64,000 nt of DNA. Origin: Capsulimonas corticalis (lineage in GTDB: Bacteria; Armatimonadota; Armatimonadia; Armatimonadales; Capsulimonadaceae). Position 1 is the first letter of the stretch, and each line of letters starts with the position of its first letter. The stretch covers positions 1,922,001 through 1,986,000 of the forward strand of contig NZ_AP025739.1 of assembly GCF_003574315.2 (NCBI RefSeq), written 5' to 3'. The position numbers and the translations under genes were made by a program. Below are positions 3,534-49,755 of this stretch, one piece after another. Below the pieces are notes generated by a model that saw only the letters and a list, made by a program, of their open reading frames with translations, made no database searches and was not told the DNA's origin.

Positions 3534-5480
3534 ATGACCTTCTTCATCAACTTAAAGATTGCGTATAAACTCGCGGTCGGATTTGGATTCTGTTTGTTTC
3601 TCTCGGCTGTCCTCACGGTCGTCGCTGTGAAGCAGATGGCGAATCAGGAGCGGATCGCCAGCCTCATCGTCTCGGATTCCGTGGTTGGCTTGCAGCAGCT
3701 CAGCATTGTCGCGGGCGAAACACGCCAGGTTCGCATTTTGCAGTATCGTCACTTGCTGACCAAAGAAGATGCGGGTAAGCGTGACGTGGAGGCGTCGATC
3801 TCCGCCTCGGTCGAGAAAGCCAGCAGCGCCATCAAAGGGTATGTCGATACGACCATCGATCCGTTGGATCGGCGGAACGCCGAGGATTTGCAGAAAAGCT
3901 GGGATGCGTATTTGGGATACCAGGACAGGTTTCTGGCGGACAGCCGTCAGCGCCGGACCGATTCCGCCGTTCAGCTGATGAATGGGGAGATGAAGCAAAG
4001 CTTTTTGTCCATGGTGGCGGTATCCGACGCCATGGTGGTCTGGAACAAAAAGCATGGCGCGGACTATGCGAGCGCTTCGGCGGACGCATACCGAAGCGGC
4101 GCCGCGCTTATGGGGGGAATGCTGCTGCTGTCGCTGGCGCTGGGGATCGCGTTCGCGCTCGCCATCACGCGGCAGGTGACCGGGCCGCTCCACCTGGTGT
4201 CGGTGGGGTACGACAGTATGCGCAACGGCTGCATCGCAAATCTCAACAAGGCGATCGGCGCGCTGGCGTGCGGAGACCTGACCGTCCGAGTCGAGCCGAA
4301 GACAAAGCCCATCGAGGTCAAGTCTCGAGACGAGATCGGAAAAATCACCGAGACATTCAACCAGATGGTAGGCGCCGTTGAGGAAACCATCGTTTCGTTC
4401 AATCAGTCCCAGGAATCGCTGACGCGAGTGGTTGAGCAGCTCCAGTCGGCGGCGGGCCAGGTGGCGCAGACTTCCACGACCGTGGTGAATGCGGCGCAGC
4501 AGGTCGGTTCGGGCTCTGAGGAGATCAGCGCGACGATGGGCGAAGTCTCCAGCGCCAGCGAGCAGTCAGCGCGCGGCGCCAGCGAAGTGGCGCAGGGCGC
4601 GGCCAGCCAGGCCGTATCGCTCGCCAGCAGCCGGGAGCGTATCAAGAACCTGACCGGATCCATCGACAGCGTCGTTCACAGCGCCGGCGAAGCCAGCGGC
4701 GCGGCCAGCGACGCCGCCGGAGCCGCCGAGCGCGGCGCGAGCACGGTGGCGCGCTCCATCCAAAGCATCCGGTCCATCGAGCAGACCATCGACGCCAGCG
4801 CGGAGACGATGGGCATGCTCAGCGAATCGGCGCGCACGATCGGCTCGATCGTCGAGACGATCAACCAGATCGCCGAGCAGACGAACCTGCTCGCCCTGAA
4901 CGCGGCGATCGAAGCGGCGCGGGCCGGGGAATCGGGCCGTGGCTTCGCGGTGGTGGCGGAGGAAGTGCGCAAGCTGGCGGAGCGTTCTGCGGTGGCGACG
5001 CGTGAGATCACGTCGATGATCGCGACGGTTCAGGAGCGCACGCAGGCGGCGACGGCGGCGACGGCGAAGGGCCGTCAGGAAGCGGCGACGGGCGTTGGCC
5101 TGGCCGGGGAAGTAGAGACGGCTTTGGCGGAGATCGCCCGCCATGCGGCGTCCGTGGCGGAGCGGATCGCGGGGATCGACGAGGCGACTCGCCAGATGAG
5201 CGCCGAGTCCAACCGGATCAGCGCGGAGATCGACGGCGTGGCGGCGGTGGTGGAGCAGAGCTCTGCGGCGGCCGAAGAGATGTCGGCGTCGGCGGAGCAG
5301 GTGTCGGCGTCGATCCAGAGCGTTTCGGCGATGAGCGGCCAGCAGGCGCACGCCGCGGAGAGCTTGCTGCAAAGCTCCAGCGACTTGAGCAATGTCGCCG
5401 AGACGCTTTCCGAAACCGTGCGCGGCTTCAAGATCGGGGAAGGTGCGCCGGTGAAGCTGACGCTGCGGAAAGTCGCGTAA
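3534..5480 (+). CDS. Methyl-accepting chemotaxis protein
   Basis: The 648-residue chemoreceptor signals to CheA/CheW. It has a first membrane helix at about residues 12-33, then a four-helix-bundle-type periplasmic sensor (about 35-188), a second helix at 192-211, a HAMP region and a long methylation/signalling coiled coil. The highly conserved hairpin tip is visible around 443-485 ([19 protein letters not shown]). The ATG follows AGGAGAAAAG. No che genes are adjacent. The region between TM2 and the HAMP end is longer than in simple receptors. The ligand cannot be predicted. A terminator-like hairpin follows. Confidence 0.96.
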
Positions 5481-5503
5481 TCACATACTCGGCGCCGCGC
5501 CGC

Positions 5504-5540
5504 CAGGCCGCTCTCGACGATCGTCGAAAGCGGCCTGTTT
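5504..5540 (+). terminator. Terminator-like hairpin after the chemoreceptor gene
   Basis: The arms CAGGCCGCT and AGCGGCCTG enclose a second near-palindromic TCGACGA/TCGTCGA stem. The hairpin spans 5504-5537 and is followed by only three Ts, so efficiency is uncertain. Confidence 0.65.
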
Positions 5541-5627
5541 GATGCGCGGCCCGCCTGCCGTCGCCCTGCGTGGAACCCAGGAGGTTTTGGGAACGTTCTA
5601 TGAATATCGCCTCGCTTTCCGGGCGTC

Positions 5628-6338
5628 GTGAATGGACCGATCCGTCGAAAAGGAATTTCCCGCTTGCTCCAAGACTGGCTTGCGCGTTTACATCTGTCGC
5701 TTGTCGCGCTGCTGCTCGCGCTGAGCGGCCACGCTTCCGTCGCGCCGACGACGGTCAATATCAATGTGTCGCGCCCGGCGGCGCGGGCCGCCGCCTTCAC
5801 GCCGAACTACGCCGCCGCCGCCAGGATGGATCGTCTCTGGCGCTGGCCTCGTTTCCCGCTTCATGTGTTTATCGCCGGGCATAACGACGAGGAAAAACGA
5901 GAGGCCGGCGTCGCCATGGCCGGGTTTGACGAGTGGGTGACGGCGTCCCGCGACGGCGTCCGTTACCAGATCGTCAACAGTCCGTCCGAAGCGGACGTGA
6001 CGGTGCGTTTCACCACGGACGAATACCTGAACGATCGGCGGGGCGTGGTCGGAGAAACGCATGTCTCGGGCCGGGGCGGCGTGCTGTTCAAAGCCGAGAT
6101 GCGGCTGGCGACCGGCGGCGCGAGCGATTCGGATTTGCAGACGGCGGCGGCGCATGAATTCGGCCACGCGCTCGGGATCGGCGGCCACAGCAACAGCCCG
6201 AAAGATTTGATGTATCCCTCGCAAGTGCGCTACCTCCGCTGGGATCAAACGCCGATCCCGTCCGCGCCGCGCCATGTGACGCGCCGCGATCTGAATACCC
6301 TGCGTGTCTGCTACCCGGACCTCACCCCGCCGGGATAA
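5628..6338 (+). CDS. Secreted matrixin-like (M10-type) zinc metalloprotease
   Basis: The 236-residue protein has an N-terminal basic stretch and hydrophobic helix (about 20-36), consistent with a signal peptide. The metzincin zinc motif HEFGHALGIGGH is at residues 176-187, with a following Met-turn (DLMYP, Met195). The preceding VTVRFTTDEY block and the RRDLNTLRVCYP end match bacterial matrixin-like catalytic domains, so a secreted or surface endopeptidase is likely. The start shown is GTG at 5628. A TTG at 5664 has a better SD (AAAAGG) and also leaves a complete signal peptide. The last 17 bases overlap the convergent lipoprotein gene. Confidence 0.88.
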   Translation: MNGPIRRKGISRLLQDWLARLHLSLVALLLALSGHASVAPTTVNINVSRPAARAAAFTPNYAAAARMDRLWRWPRFPLHVFIAGHNDEEKREAGVAMAGFDEWVTASRDGVRYQIVNSPSEADVTVRFTTDEYLNDRRGVVGETHVSGRGGVLFKAEMRLATGGASDSDLQTAAAHEFGHALGIGGHSNSPKDLMYPSQVRYLRWDQTPIPSAPRHVTRRDLNTLRVCYPDLTPPG

Positions 6339-45983: not shown

Positions 45984-48900
45984 TCAAGTCCGTTTCATCA
46001 CGCGTCGTATCTTCACATGCCCGTCGGCGAACGCTTCGCAGACCCAGTCGTTTCCGTCGATGACGCTGGGCGTGGGCGTATCGCTGAGCATCAGCGCACC
46101 ATGCGGATCGTCGATTTTCACGAGGGACGCATGGGAAAGCGCCGCGGACGGGCGGTAAGGCTTTCCGGAAAGGGGACTGATGAATATGTCGCCGCCTTCC
46201 GCATGGTTTAGCGTTCCGGTTTTGAGGTCGATCTGTTTCTCCTGGAACGCGATGTAAGGCGCCAGGTCCTTGCGCAGCGCGGCGAGGGATGTCATCGCCG
46301 GCAGAGTATTGTCGTTGTCCTGGATGTACTCCATGAGGGCCAGTCCCAGCAGCTTCATGTTGTGGACCGTCATGTCTTTACGTTTCGCCCAGGCGAGCTG
46401 CTGGTTTCGGATCGCGATTTGCTGGGGCGTGAAGGGCTTCGAGATGACGCCGCCGAGCGGCTGGAGCTGGATATTACGGAACTCGACGATCTCGTACGGA
46501 CGCGTTTGCAGGCGGAACTCTTTGATCTGCGCGAGATCGACGCCGGGGTTATATCTGCGCAGCTCCGATGTCTTCGAGAATGTCAGCCAGCAGTAATCGG
46601 CGCCATGGCCTGCTTCCGCGGTGACTTCCAGGGGAATGACCCGGTCGCTCTGATCCACGGCGACGATGCGGCGCGCAACATTGCCAAGGGCGCGTTCCCT
46701 CCCCAGAAAATACTCCACGCGCCAATTCCCATGAGCGTCAAAATACGCCAGCGCTGGTTTGTCGTTGAACAGGAGCGTGACATCCGCGTCCATGTCCATA
46801 CGCCCCGGCTGCGGGGGCGACGCCGGGTGATAGATCTTATCCGGCGTGAACCCCGCAGGAAGGATCGCCTCCGTCTTCCAGGGAGTGGTGGACACGCCGA
46901 TACGCATGGAGAACGATTTGGCGCTCCGGGGGAAGAAATAGACGCCGCCGGCGCCGGACACTGCTCGGTTGGAGCGAAAGAGGGATTTTTCGGGATCGTC
47001 GTCGGACACTCCGAAGACTTGAGTGAACTGGCTCGAATCGCCGGAGGGATCTCCAAAACTGCAATTCACGGCGTAGGGAGGAAGCCCCCCGTACGAGGCG
47101 ATCGGCCAGCGGGAATAGCGCGGATTGCTGAACGACGCCGGCGCCGGGGCGGGCGAGCCGTCGGGCAGCCACCAGGCGCCATGCATCGTCCACCAGCCGC
47201 CTTCGGGGATCGCCCGTGTGACGTTTTCGATCTCGACGGTGCGTCCATTGGACAGCGTCGCCTGGTACCCATCGGCGACACGGACATTGCCCCCCGTATC
47301 GCTGCGCATCTCGATGATTTCTTTGCCGTCCGCGGAAACGGACCGGTAAAGATTGCGCGAGATTGTCTCAGTCGCCACCGGAGCGTTGAGACGACTGGCA
47401 ACCGTTTCGGCCTCCGCCAGGTCCCGGAAGCCGCCGATCATCTCAATGCCGTTGCTCTGGATCACGTCATTGACGACCGACGCGGAAAATGCCTTATCGC
47501 CCAGGAATATGCCCAGAACCTCGCGCCGGTGTGCGGCCGAAAATTTGGCAAGCTTCTGGACTCCTTCCGGGGTGAAGATCAAATTCACGCTGGGAGACGC
47601 GGGGATCTCAGAGCTCATCCTCGCCTTCGCGTTGACCACATCGGAATCCGTGAGGATGATCGGGGAGTTTTCAATCATGCGTGTCCAGGCGGCCTGTTCC
47701 TGAATCAGCTCGCGAGTCTTTCGCTGCTGCTCGGCTGTGAAGTAAACGGGCCGGGACGGAACGCCGGGGAGCGTCAGCTGCGGGATCACAAACGCCGTGG
47801 CGCCGGCCCTCCGCTCATATCCTTGCTCCAGAACCTTCTGGAACTTCGACTGGATCGTGAAGGCGTCGGGATATGCTTGCTTCGTTCTTCGATCCCAGAA
47901 ATGCACGGTCTCACTGTGGTCCGCGTTAAGCTCCAAGGTTTGCCTGATGGGGCGCTGCGGGGCCGCCGGGCAGGCGACATCCTTCAAATAGAGAAATTGC
48001 AGAATGCCGCGCTCCTGGCGATGCTGCGCCGGAGGTTCTCCCGACTCCGGCGACGCTGCCGGGGATGCCTGAGCCCGAACCATGGGGCGCAGGATCGATA
48101 CCGGGATTAGCAGCGCCAGCCCCGCGCCGGCGGCGGCGATGAGTTTCTTGCGGCCCAATTGCCGGCGGTTGACGCCGGGCGCCAGCATCGCTTGGATCCG
48201 CCCCTCGGTCTCGCGCGGCAGCGCCATCGCGATCGCCACGGTGCGCGGGTTCGCGCCTTCGGGCAGCGAGCGCAGCACGTCCAGTAGTCGCTGGGCGTAG
48301 TCGCTCGGGCGAACGCCGGCATGCAGAACGCAGTCGTCGCAGGCCAGCTCGCTGGTCTCGCGCGCCTGGCGCGCCGCTATCCAGACCATCGGATGGAACC
48401 AGTAGAGAGCGCCGGCGAGGCGCGCGGCGGTCTGCGTCACCCAATCTCCCCGCCGCACATGCGCGAACTCGTGCAGCAGGGCCGCGCGCCGGCACTCCGC
48501 CGACCAGTTTCCCGACTGCGGCGGCAGTAAAACCACGGGATGAAGCGCCCCCCATGTGATCGGCACAACCACGCCGCTCTCCTCAGACGCTTGCCGCGCC
48601 GCCACGCGCCGCCGAACGCGCATCGCCTGCCGCGCGCTGTCGGCGATCTCCTGAGTCTCTGGATCCAGAGGCCGACTGCCGCGCCACGCGCGGTTCACCC
48701 GGCGCATCCCCATCGCGATCCGGCCAAGAGCCAGCGCAAAGCCGGCCATCCAGACGGCCGTGATGAGGAGCGCCCACGGAATAGAAAACCCATGGCGCGC
48801 GGCCGGCGCCACGGCGACTGGTTCGGGCGCTGCGGATGCGGCGGCGATCGGCGCGCTGCTCTGATCCACCGCGCTGGACGCAGCTTCCGGAGACGGCGGC

Positions 48901-49175
48901 CGTTTCGTCGCCGTCTCCGGCGCGCTGTCCCGAACGGCCTGAACGCTTACCGCAGGCGCAGTCGCGTGTCGCCGCGCCACGGCGACATTCCAGGACGGCA
49001 GCGTCAGGGACAAAATGGGGAGAACGAGCACGCCGGCGACCGCCGCCGCCCAAACCACGTGCCGCGTGGACGCGGAGGCGCGGCGAAGCGCCCGGTGGAC
49101 CGCCATCGCGGCCGCCAGCAGAAGAGTGCTTTTGAACAGCAGCAGCGGCAAAGCATGAAAGATAAATGCAGTCAC
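45984..49175 (-). CDS. BlaR1-like M56 protease fused to a SecD P1-head-like and a DUF1559-like region
   Basis: The 1063-residue protein starts at GTG 49175, eight bases after AGAGGA. Residues 1-370 form the M56 integral-membrane sensor protease: several helices, HEFAH at 235-239 and a third ligand region ETSELACDD. After the last helix (about 345-363) comes an extracytoplasmic part. Residues 505-600 (ILTDSDVVNAK, NLIFTPEGVQKLAKFS, FLGDKAFSASVVNDVI, GGFRDLAEAE) follow the SecD P1-head pattern. Residues 600-925 are unassigned beta-rich sequence. Residues 938-1060 (HNMKLLGLALMEYIQDNDNTLPA to AFADGHVK) resemble a DUF1559 domain without its prepilin helix. It is paired with BlaI, which it presumably inactivates on sensing a signal. 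Confidence 0.88.
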   Translation of the reverse strand: MTAFIFHALPLLLFKSTLLLAAAMAVHRALRRASASTRHVVWAAAVAGVLVLPILSLTLPSWNVAVARRHATAPAVSVQAVRDSAPETATKRPPSPEAASSAVDQSSAPIAAASAAPEPVAVAPAARHGFSIPWALLITAVWMAGFALALGRIAMGMRRVNRAWRGSRPLDPETQEIADSARQAMRVRRRVAARQASEESGVVVPITWGALHPVVLLPPQSGNWSAECRRAALLHEFAHVRRGDWVTQTAARLAGALYWFHPMVWIAARQARETSELACDDCVLHAGVRPSDYAQRLLDVLRSLPEGANPRTVAIAMALPRETEGRIQAMLAPGVNRRQLGRKKLIAAAGAGLALLIPVSILRPMVRAQASPAASPESGEPPAQHRQERGILQFLYLKDVACPAAPQRPIRQTLELNADHSETVHFWDRRTKQAYPDAFTIQSKFQKVLEQGYERRAGATAFVIPQLTLPGVPSRPVYFTAEQQRKTRELIQEQAAWTRMIENSPIILTDSDVVNAKARMSSEIPASPSVNLIFTPEGVQKLAKFSAAHRREVLGIFLGDKAFSASVVNDVIQSNGIEMIGGFRDLAEAETVASRLNAPVATETISRNLYRSVSADGKEIIEMRSDTGGNVRVADGYQATLSNGRTVEIENVTRAIPEGGWWTMHGAWWLPDGSPAPAPASFSNPRYSRWPIASYGGLPPYAVNCSFGDPSGDSSQFTQVFGVSDDDPEKSLFRSNRAVSGAGGVYFFPRSAKSFSMRIGVSTTPWKTEAILPAGFTPDKIYHPASPPQPGRMDMDADVTLLFNDKPALAYFDAHGNWRVEYFLGRERALGNVARRIVAVDQSDRVIPLEVTAEAGHGADYCWLTFSKTSELRRYNPGVDLAQIKEFRLQTRPYEIVEFRNIQLQPLGGVISKPFTPQQIAIRNQQLAWAKRKDMTVHNMKLLGLALMEYIQDNDNTLPAMTSLAALRKDLAPYIAFQEKQIDLKTGTLNHAEGGDIFISPLSGKPYRPSAALSHASLVKIDDPHGALMLSDTPTPSVIDGNDWVCEAFADGHVKIRRVMKRT

Positions 49176-49267
49176 TTGTCCATTCCTCTCGTGCGCTAAC
49201 ATCGATCTCGTTCACGTAAGAAGTCAGAAAGACCGGCGGTTTTCATCGCCCGCGCCTCATCGGACGG

Positions 49268-49678
49268 CTAACCACGATCGTCGTGTTCGCCTTGCTCCGC
49301 CGCCCGCGCCTGCTGGATCATCTCTTCTAACCGCCCAAGTTCTTCCTCGGTGGGCCGCGTCTGCTGGTTGGCGAGCAGCGTCGCCACGGCCTGCTCGACG
49401 CTGCCGCCGAAGAATGTCTGCACCACCTGCTCGATCGCGCTCTTGGCGACCGCTGTCCAGCTCTCCATAGGCGAGTACACATACTTGGTCCCCACCAGAG
49501 TATGCTTGATCTGGCCCTTGTCCTCTAAAATCCGCATAAAAGCGCGCACCGCCGAATAACTGGGAGCGTCCGGCATGGCGTCCCGAACGTCGGTCACGGA
49601 CGACGCGCCGCGCTGGTAAAGAATGTCCATGATTTGACGCTCACGCCGGCTCAGCCGGTGCGGTAACAGCTTGTTCAT
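49268..49678 (-). CDS. BlaI/MecI-family repressor
   Basis: The 136-residue protein has an N-terminal winged helix (about 5-80): LSRRERQIMDILYQRGASSVTDVRDAM and YSAVRAFMRILEDKGQIKH. A C-terminal dimerisation helix contains the region normally cleaved by the BlaR1 protease. It lies 92 bases upstream of the M56 gene on the same strand. Two tandem palindromic operators overlap its promoter, consistent with autorepression relieved by the M56 protease. No beta-lactamase gene is nearby, so the regulated output is unknown. Confidence 0.94.
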   Translation of the reverse strand: MNKLLPHRLSRRERQIMDILYQRGASSVTDVRDAMPDAPSYSAVRAFMRILEDKGQIKHTLVGTKYVYSPMESWTAVAKSAIEQVVQTFFGGSVEQAVATLLANQQTRPTEEELGRLEEMIQQARAAEQGEHDDRG

Positions 49679-49695: not shown

Positions 49696-49755
49696 TGCTA
49701 ATAAAATCAGCAGGTAGATGCTAATCATATTAGCACTACCCCGCGAGTTTGTCAA
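49696..49755 (-). promoter_or_regulatory. blaI-type promoter with two tandem operators
   Basis: Minus strand -35 TTGACA (49755-49750), 17 bases, -10 TAATAT (49732-49727). TGCTAAT-CAT-ATTAGCA (49719-49735) overlaps the -10, and TGCTAAT-AAA-ATCAGCA (49696-49712) lies 23 bases downstream with one mismatch. Confidence 0.9.

Follow-up and report, generated by a model that had tools for sequence, protein, structure and literature searches.

A BlaI-linked M56 protease with a SecD P1 segment and a pseudopilin-type head in Capsulimonas corticalis

Results

The window analyzed here, a stretch of 64,000 nucleotides of the Capsulimonas corticalis genome, encodes a fusion protein that consists of four parts: an M56 protease of the BlaR1 type, a SecD P1 segment, a beta-rich middle domain, and a pilin head. 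We propose, with a probability of about 0.45, that its BlaI/M56 switch is gated by the binding of exported polypeptides to P1 and not by antibiotics. Pfam, fold, and profile–profile evidence bore out the three-part anatomy (M56 protease, SecD P1, and pilin-like tail) given in a preliminary description, which had overlooked the fourth part at residues 626–920.

The open reading frame (45984..49202, minus strand) has 1072 codons when counted from ATG. An in-frame GTG at 49175 would result in a protein of 1063 amino acids. Since this GTG has an AGGA ribosome-binding-like stretch, a better context than that of the ATG, and aligns with the Met of the paralog, it is probably the real start of the gene.

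Protease and BlaI Partner

The protease domain (residues 25–337; 48192..49130, minus strand) matched PF05569 in Pfam with E=1.3e-29. Both the HExxH and the ExxxD motif were intact (HEFAH at residue 244, 48459-48473, minus strand; ELACD at residue 285), in agreement with the M56 protease described earlier. Four hydrophobic helices were predicted (residues 12–30, 49–67, 141–159, and 353–371) and none after P1. The gene for a BlaI-family repressor (49268..49678, minus strand; Penicillinase_R in Pfam, E=2.6e-22) lies directly upstream of the M56 gene as the first gene of the pair, so that the adjacent BlaI was also confirmed. This BlaI is 73%–78% identical to the BlaI proteins of two other fusion loci.

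BlaR1 proteins ordinarily have a penicillin-binding sensor, and the sensor of MecR1/BlaR1 is class-D-like. The presence of an M56 and BlaI pair would fit an ordinary beta-lactam receptor. However, no penicillin-binding or transpeptidase-type domain was present in the fusion protein in Pfam at E≤1, as had been stated before, and the NCBIfam model blaR1_generic remained at 67 bits, the cut-off being 400, which makes such a receptor very improbable. PADLOC returned only a weak HTH match of BlaI for the locus.

Identity and Fold of the SecD P1 Segment

Residues 400–625 (47328..48005, minus strand) are a true SecD P1 segment, as supported by Pfam, BLASTP, fold, and tree. The match to PF22599 (SecDF_P1_head) covered residues 511–607 (47382-47672, minus strand) with E=9.1e-10 and 38.9 bits, the gathering score being 27. 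The NCBIfam model secD matched residues 503–625 (E=2e-7), and two Thermus SecDF sequences were the only matches below E=0.01 in a sequence search of the PDB. BLASTP against the SecDF protein of the same genome resulted in E=4e-26 and 32% identity. The homology begins at about residue 400 with the LxFxYLKDV strand, the first strand in the second half of the base, and thus extends beyond the SecD P1-head-like domain that was noticed first. The first half of the base (SecD_1st, PF21760) had no match in the fusion protein, and the six-helix RND-type transmembrane motor of SecD is absent, only the four M56 helices being predicted.

Structures were predicted from two smaller alignments, as large mixed alignments misplaced fragments. 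The AlphaFold2 model of the P1 part (30 aligned sequences) showed a confident fold, with ten-residue block means of mostly 89–98. The nine best Foldseek matches of this model were all SecDF or SecD chains (E 1.8e-7 to 0.058), and VIA aligned 133 residues to 5yhf with Z=14.7 and 2.6 A. The genome contains exactly three P1 heads, which belong to SecDF, the fusion protein of the window, and a paralog. At 23 of the 35 strongly conserved SecDF columns the residues were identical in both fusions of genome G000.

Origin of P1 and Captures Elsewhere

In a maximum likelihood tree of 45 P1 segments, in which some rows, including L026 and L073, form long branches, the three fusion copies formed one group (99/96). 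This group joined the SecDF proteins of the same family (99/96, 7 rows). A stretch of about 65 residues (441–505) was filled at 61–65 of 65 positions in SecDF proteins of the same order and at 65, 36, and 45 positions in the three fusions, but only at 5–18 positions in SecDF proteins of other families. Since the tree grouping and this shared order-specific stretch agree, P1 is shown, on the level of sequence, to have been captured from the SecDF of its own lineage. In the SecDF protein of the genome (L010:3170-6271, minus strand), part of this order-specific stretch appears to be present twice, as one part of the query gave two matches there that overlap.

P1 was also present in other proteins of the phylum. 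The ECF sigma factor encoded by L081:1495-2865 (plus strand; G244, C37:46994-48364) has Sigma70_r2 and Sigma70_r4 domains and a single membrane helix, and a C-terminal P1 head (PF22599 with E=1.6e-14) is its sole extracytoplasmic domain. This combination is known from one genome. L087 is a secreted proline-rich protein that carries P1. In both proteins P1 begins at the same strand as in the M56 fusion, and three lipoproteins (L082, L083, and L085) have P1 with more of its base. The lipoprotein copy at L085:4120-5325 (minus strand) adjoins a complete SecDF gene (L085:2-2914, minus strand), its source by duplication. In the tree, the P1 of the sigma factor was placed inside the SecDF proteins of its own family (100/100, ten-row set) and that of L087 with the SecDF proteins of its own family (96/93). 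Because of these separate placements, the tree argues for at least three independent captures of P1, two of them into regulators. The capture by the ECF sigma factor, with its single membrane helix, suggests a sensory use of P1.

We also sampled Verrucomicrobiota, with 289 genomes searched by protein and 106 by PF22599. About 14 extra P1 frames were found; 12 loci were examined and 11 of them had a P1 match (none in L131). All 11 proteins were secreted, lipoprotein-like, or TPR-linked, and the examined loci contained no M56–P1 or sigma–P1 fusion. One secreted protein (L125:688-2379, minus strand) has at least two repeats that resemble the SecD P1 head.

Middle Domain

The beta-rich middle domain (residues 626–920; 46443..47327, minus strand) was delimited by the model and by profile matches in other M56 proteins. 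It contains the motifs WWxPDG, GPWxT, ARRxVAxD, and EFxLQTRPYxWxEF, and its profile matched L011, L028, L030, L032, L041, L052, L059, L064, and L006. Many M56 proteins of the phylum carry this domain behind the protease, sometimes twice. This recurrence suggests that it is the older periplasmic part, in front of which P1 was inserted, between membrane and domain. The claim that the sensor had been replaced thus held insofar as a penicillin-binding domain is missing, but not as a plain replacement, since the phylum-common domain was kept and P1 was apparently inserted before it. Foldseek with a model of middle domain and tail did not return a match below E=0.001. With the middle domain only, VIA ranked YcdA of B. 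subtilis first (Z 7.5, 107 residues), a value below the trustworthy level of this tool.

The occurrence of the middle domain in M56 proteins without P1 would fit an alternative in which sensing is done by the middle domain, and P1 only docks the protease to the translocon or to chaperones of the SurA/PpiD kind. The position of SecD P1 close to PpiD and its predicted contact to SurA (PMC7793623, PMC9987972) favor this as well. In the ECF sigma factor, however, P1 is the only extracytoplasmic domain, and we consider a mere docking role unlikely.

Pilin Head

The last approximately 130 residues (930–1072; 45987..46415, minus strand), which end with AFADGHVK, are by profile–profile comparison the globular head of a DUF1559-type pseudopilin without its N-terminal helix. 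The comparison of the nine-row tail family with eight true pseudopilins of the same genome by hhalign resulted in a probability of 99.6% (E=7.9e-24, 85 columns), while the profile of the middle domain, used as a negative control, reached 0.2%. The earlier assignment of a DUF1559-like tail was supported by this result, although the Pfam model for DUF1559 (SBP_bac_10) did not score on the tail. The model of the tail showed a long helix and strands at good confidence, the structure comparison covering the middle domain only.

The preliminary description had suggested that the switch monitors secretion or pseudopilin assembly at the envelope; in the narrower version, pseudopilin production or assembly would be sensed through this head. 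The homology of the head is true, and several pseudopilin genes are present in the window, one of them as convergent neighbor. However, the N-terminal methylation/assembly helix was missing in all rows of the tail family, a fusion protein from the same genus (L026) lacks the head, and pilin-like heads also occur in the unrelated L012, L065, and L091. Without the GFTLIELL helix the head would have no pilin export or assembly route. A pseudopilin monitor is therefore quite unlikely, and because of the missing helix and the headless L026 protein, pseudopilin assembly is the weakest part of the earlier interpretation.

Helix-less heads were also seen elsewhere. Two neighboring genes of the same genome (L012:1767-3773 and 3804-5774, minus strand; approximately 6788000-6792000) encode secreted proteins, each with three tandem helix-less pilin-like heads and with a C-terminal part that is long and may be propeller-like; L065 contains the module once. 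The protein encoded by L091:2480-3292 (plus strand; same genome, approximately 7508953) combines a zinc ribbon, a pilin-like membrane helix, and a related pilin head.

Operators and Neighboring Genes

Upstream of blaI we found a sigma-70-like promoter by consensus match only (TTGACA-17-TAATAT; 49727..49755, minus strand). It is overlapped by a putative BlaI operator, TGCTAATCATATTAGCA at 49719..49735, which forms an exact dyad over the -10 box; the dyad search returned a second operator with one mismatch at 49696..49712. When the 17-base dyad was searched in the 7.65 Mb genome with at most one mismatch, two sites were found here, two before the blaI gene of the paralog, and no others. The reversed control pattern occurred 22 times. 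The other BlaI genes of the genome have operators with 4-base spacing, and a search for these returned the sites of the other BlaI genes and one site elsewhere at 5509662. As the dyad is confined to the two fusion promoters, each of the two systems probably controls both its own expression and that of the other.

The whole-genome dyad search showed no BlaI operator at a secretion or pilus gene, and the divergently oriented gene of the window lacks one of its own. The downstream gene varies, being a convergent pilin gene here and an AraC gene after the paralog. In genome G014, a same-strand gene downstream of the fusion was not found. The AraC-family gene (L009:3856-4779, minus strand) is a possible output of the paralogous copy.

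Distribution and Other M56 Proteins

The paralog of the same genome (L009) is full length, has the same four parts, and is 39% identical. In the relative from the same genus (L026), P1 is degenerate (PF22599 E=0.019) and the pilin head is absent. The fusion was thus found again within the genus, but no M56–P1 fusion was present outside it among 291 genomes of the phylum Armatimonadota. A contig scan with the full protein by six peptide patterns, which reach close relatives only, returned M56-like relatives only. The earlier statement that no three-part protein of this kind has been described agreed with our search of open-access literature, in which no description of BlaR1/M56–SecD/SecDF or SecDF P1-head fusions was found; this is weak evidence of absence.

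The genome encodes at least 12 M56 proteins, most of them with a neighboring BlaI. Besides the middle domain, their C-terminal parts comprise TPR, WD40, DUF3466, and STN/secretin pieces. An M56 scaffold with exchangeable sensors is thus already known and heavily used here, while the version with SecD P1 and pilin head is new. The BlaI-linked M56 protein at L137:1234-3663 (plus strand; same genome, approximately 2155281) carries STN (E=5e-10) and a GspD N0 domain. It also has weak secretin matches and may represent a second secretion-derived sensor on the M56 scaffold.

Such unrelated C-terminal parts, together with the degenerate P1 in L026, would be expected if recombination had brought P1 and the pilin head into a rapidly evolving sensor region, where both are for the most part neutral spacers. 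This explanation is doubtful. The paralogs are only 39% identical overall, yet both retain P1 and pilin head, and the P1 segment has kept its conserved residues and a confident fold.

Discussion

The P1 head is the substrate-binding site of SecD and lies close to PpiD (PMC7793623), and for SecD P1 both polypeptide binding and a contact to SurA, the latter by prediction, were reported (PMC9987972). The translocating chain is bound by the SecD P1 head (PMC7793623, PMC9987972, PMC6028853). BlaR1 directly cleaves BlaI, and extracellular events gate its cytoplasmic protease (PMC9834060). In the proposed switch, the M56 protein would be embedded in the membrane, its zinc site pointing to the cytoplasm, and the membrane-near P1 would bind unfolded or emerging exported chains, by analogy to SecD P1. 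Binding or loss of binding would be relayed through the middle domain and the last helix to the protease, which would cleave BlaI and thereby derepress the blaI–m56 pair and, through the shared operator, the paralogous pair. As to the pilin head, it may serve as an internal client or as a docking site for the numerous pseudopilins. We infer ligand binding by P1, the direction of the signal, the function of the pilin head, and any output other than autoregulation; gating of BlaI cleavage by P1 occupancy would combine, by analogy, the literature on SecD P1 and on BlaR1.

The conserved fold and sequence of P1, its origin from the own SecDF, the intact HExxH and ExxxD motifs, and the operator over the blaI promoter count in favor of the switch. 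Against it count the fast evolution of P1, its degeneration in L026, and a capture that left the first half of the base behind. Furthermore, the operator is present only at the two fusion promoters, and the gene downstream varies between the loci; the main weakness of the switch reading is that no secretion-stress regulon is visible.

In a more specific version, which we regard as rather improbable, P1 would be a recurrently captured extracytoplasmic sensor that ties regulators to the load of translocating chains, and the pilin head would act as a tethered client mimic that fills P1 and gives way to real clients. The L026 protein, which lacks the pilin head and also has a degenerate P1, can be cited for such a mimic. 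The sensor loop of BlaR1 is displaced by beta-lactams, and the proposed mimic would likewise be displaced by real clients.

If the switch operates as proposed, gene expression would be coupled to export load through a domain copied from the own SecDF. The BlaR1 scaffold would then be a general membrane signaling frame, for which a sensor can be built from parts of the secretion machine.

Comparison with Known Systems

With BlaR1/MecR1–BlaI the fusion system shares the membrane zinc protease with HExxH and ExxxD, the four hydrophobic helices, the neighboring BlaI gene, and a dyad operator at the promoter. It differs in having SecD P1, the middle domain, and the pilin head instead of a penicillin-binding sensor. 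With SecD/SecDF it has in common the second half of the base and the head of P1, their fold (Z 14.7 to 5yhf), and the order-specific stretch shared with the own SecDF. Unlike SecD, it lacks the first half of the base and the transmembrane motor, and P1 is attached to a protease. With the DUF1559/H-X9-DG pseudopilins it shares the globular head, from the SCASNxKQIGLAxxQYxQDxDE region to FADGHVK, but the head has no GFTLIELL methylation helix and is located C-terminally on a protease.

How the state of export is read from outside the membrane is partly understood through translation-arrest monitors, such as VemP. VemP–SecD2F2 and SecM monitor Sec activity by arresting the translation of a nascent chain. 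The proposed purpose, feedback on protein export, would be the same, and this likeness is an analogy only and not homology. While translation arrest is used there, a membrane protease and a repressor are present in the fusion system. A protease–repressor switch that carries the substrate-binding domain of the export motor would, if the proposal is true, be a solution different from that of the translation-arrest monitors.
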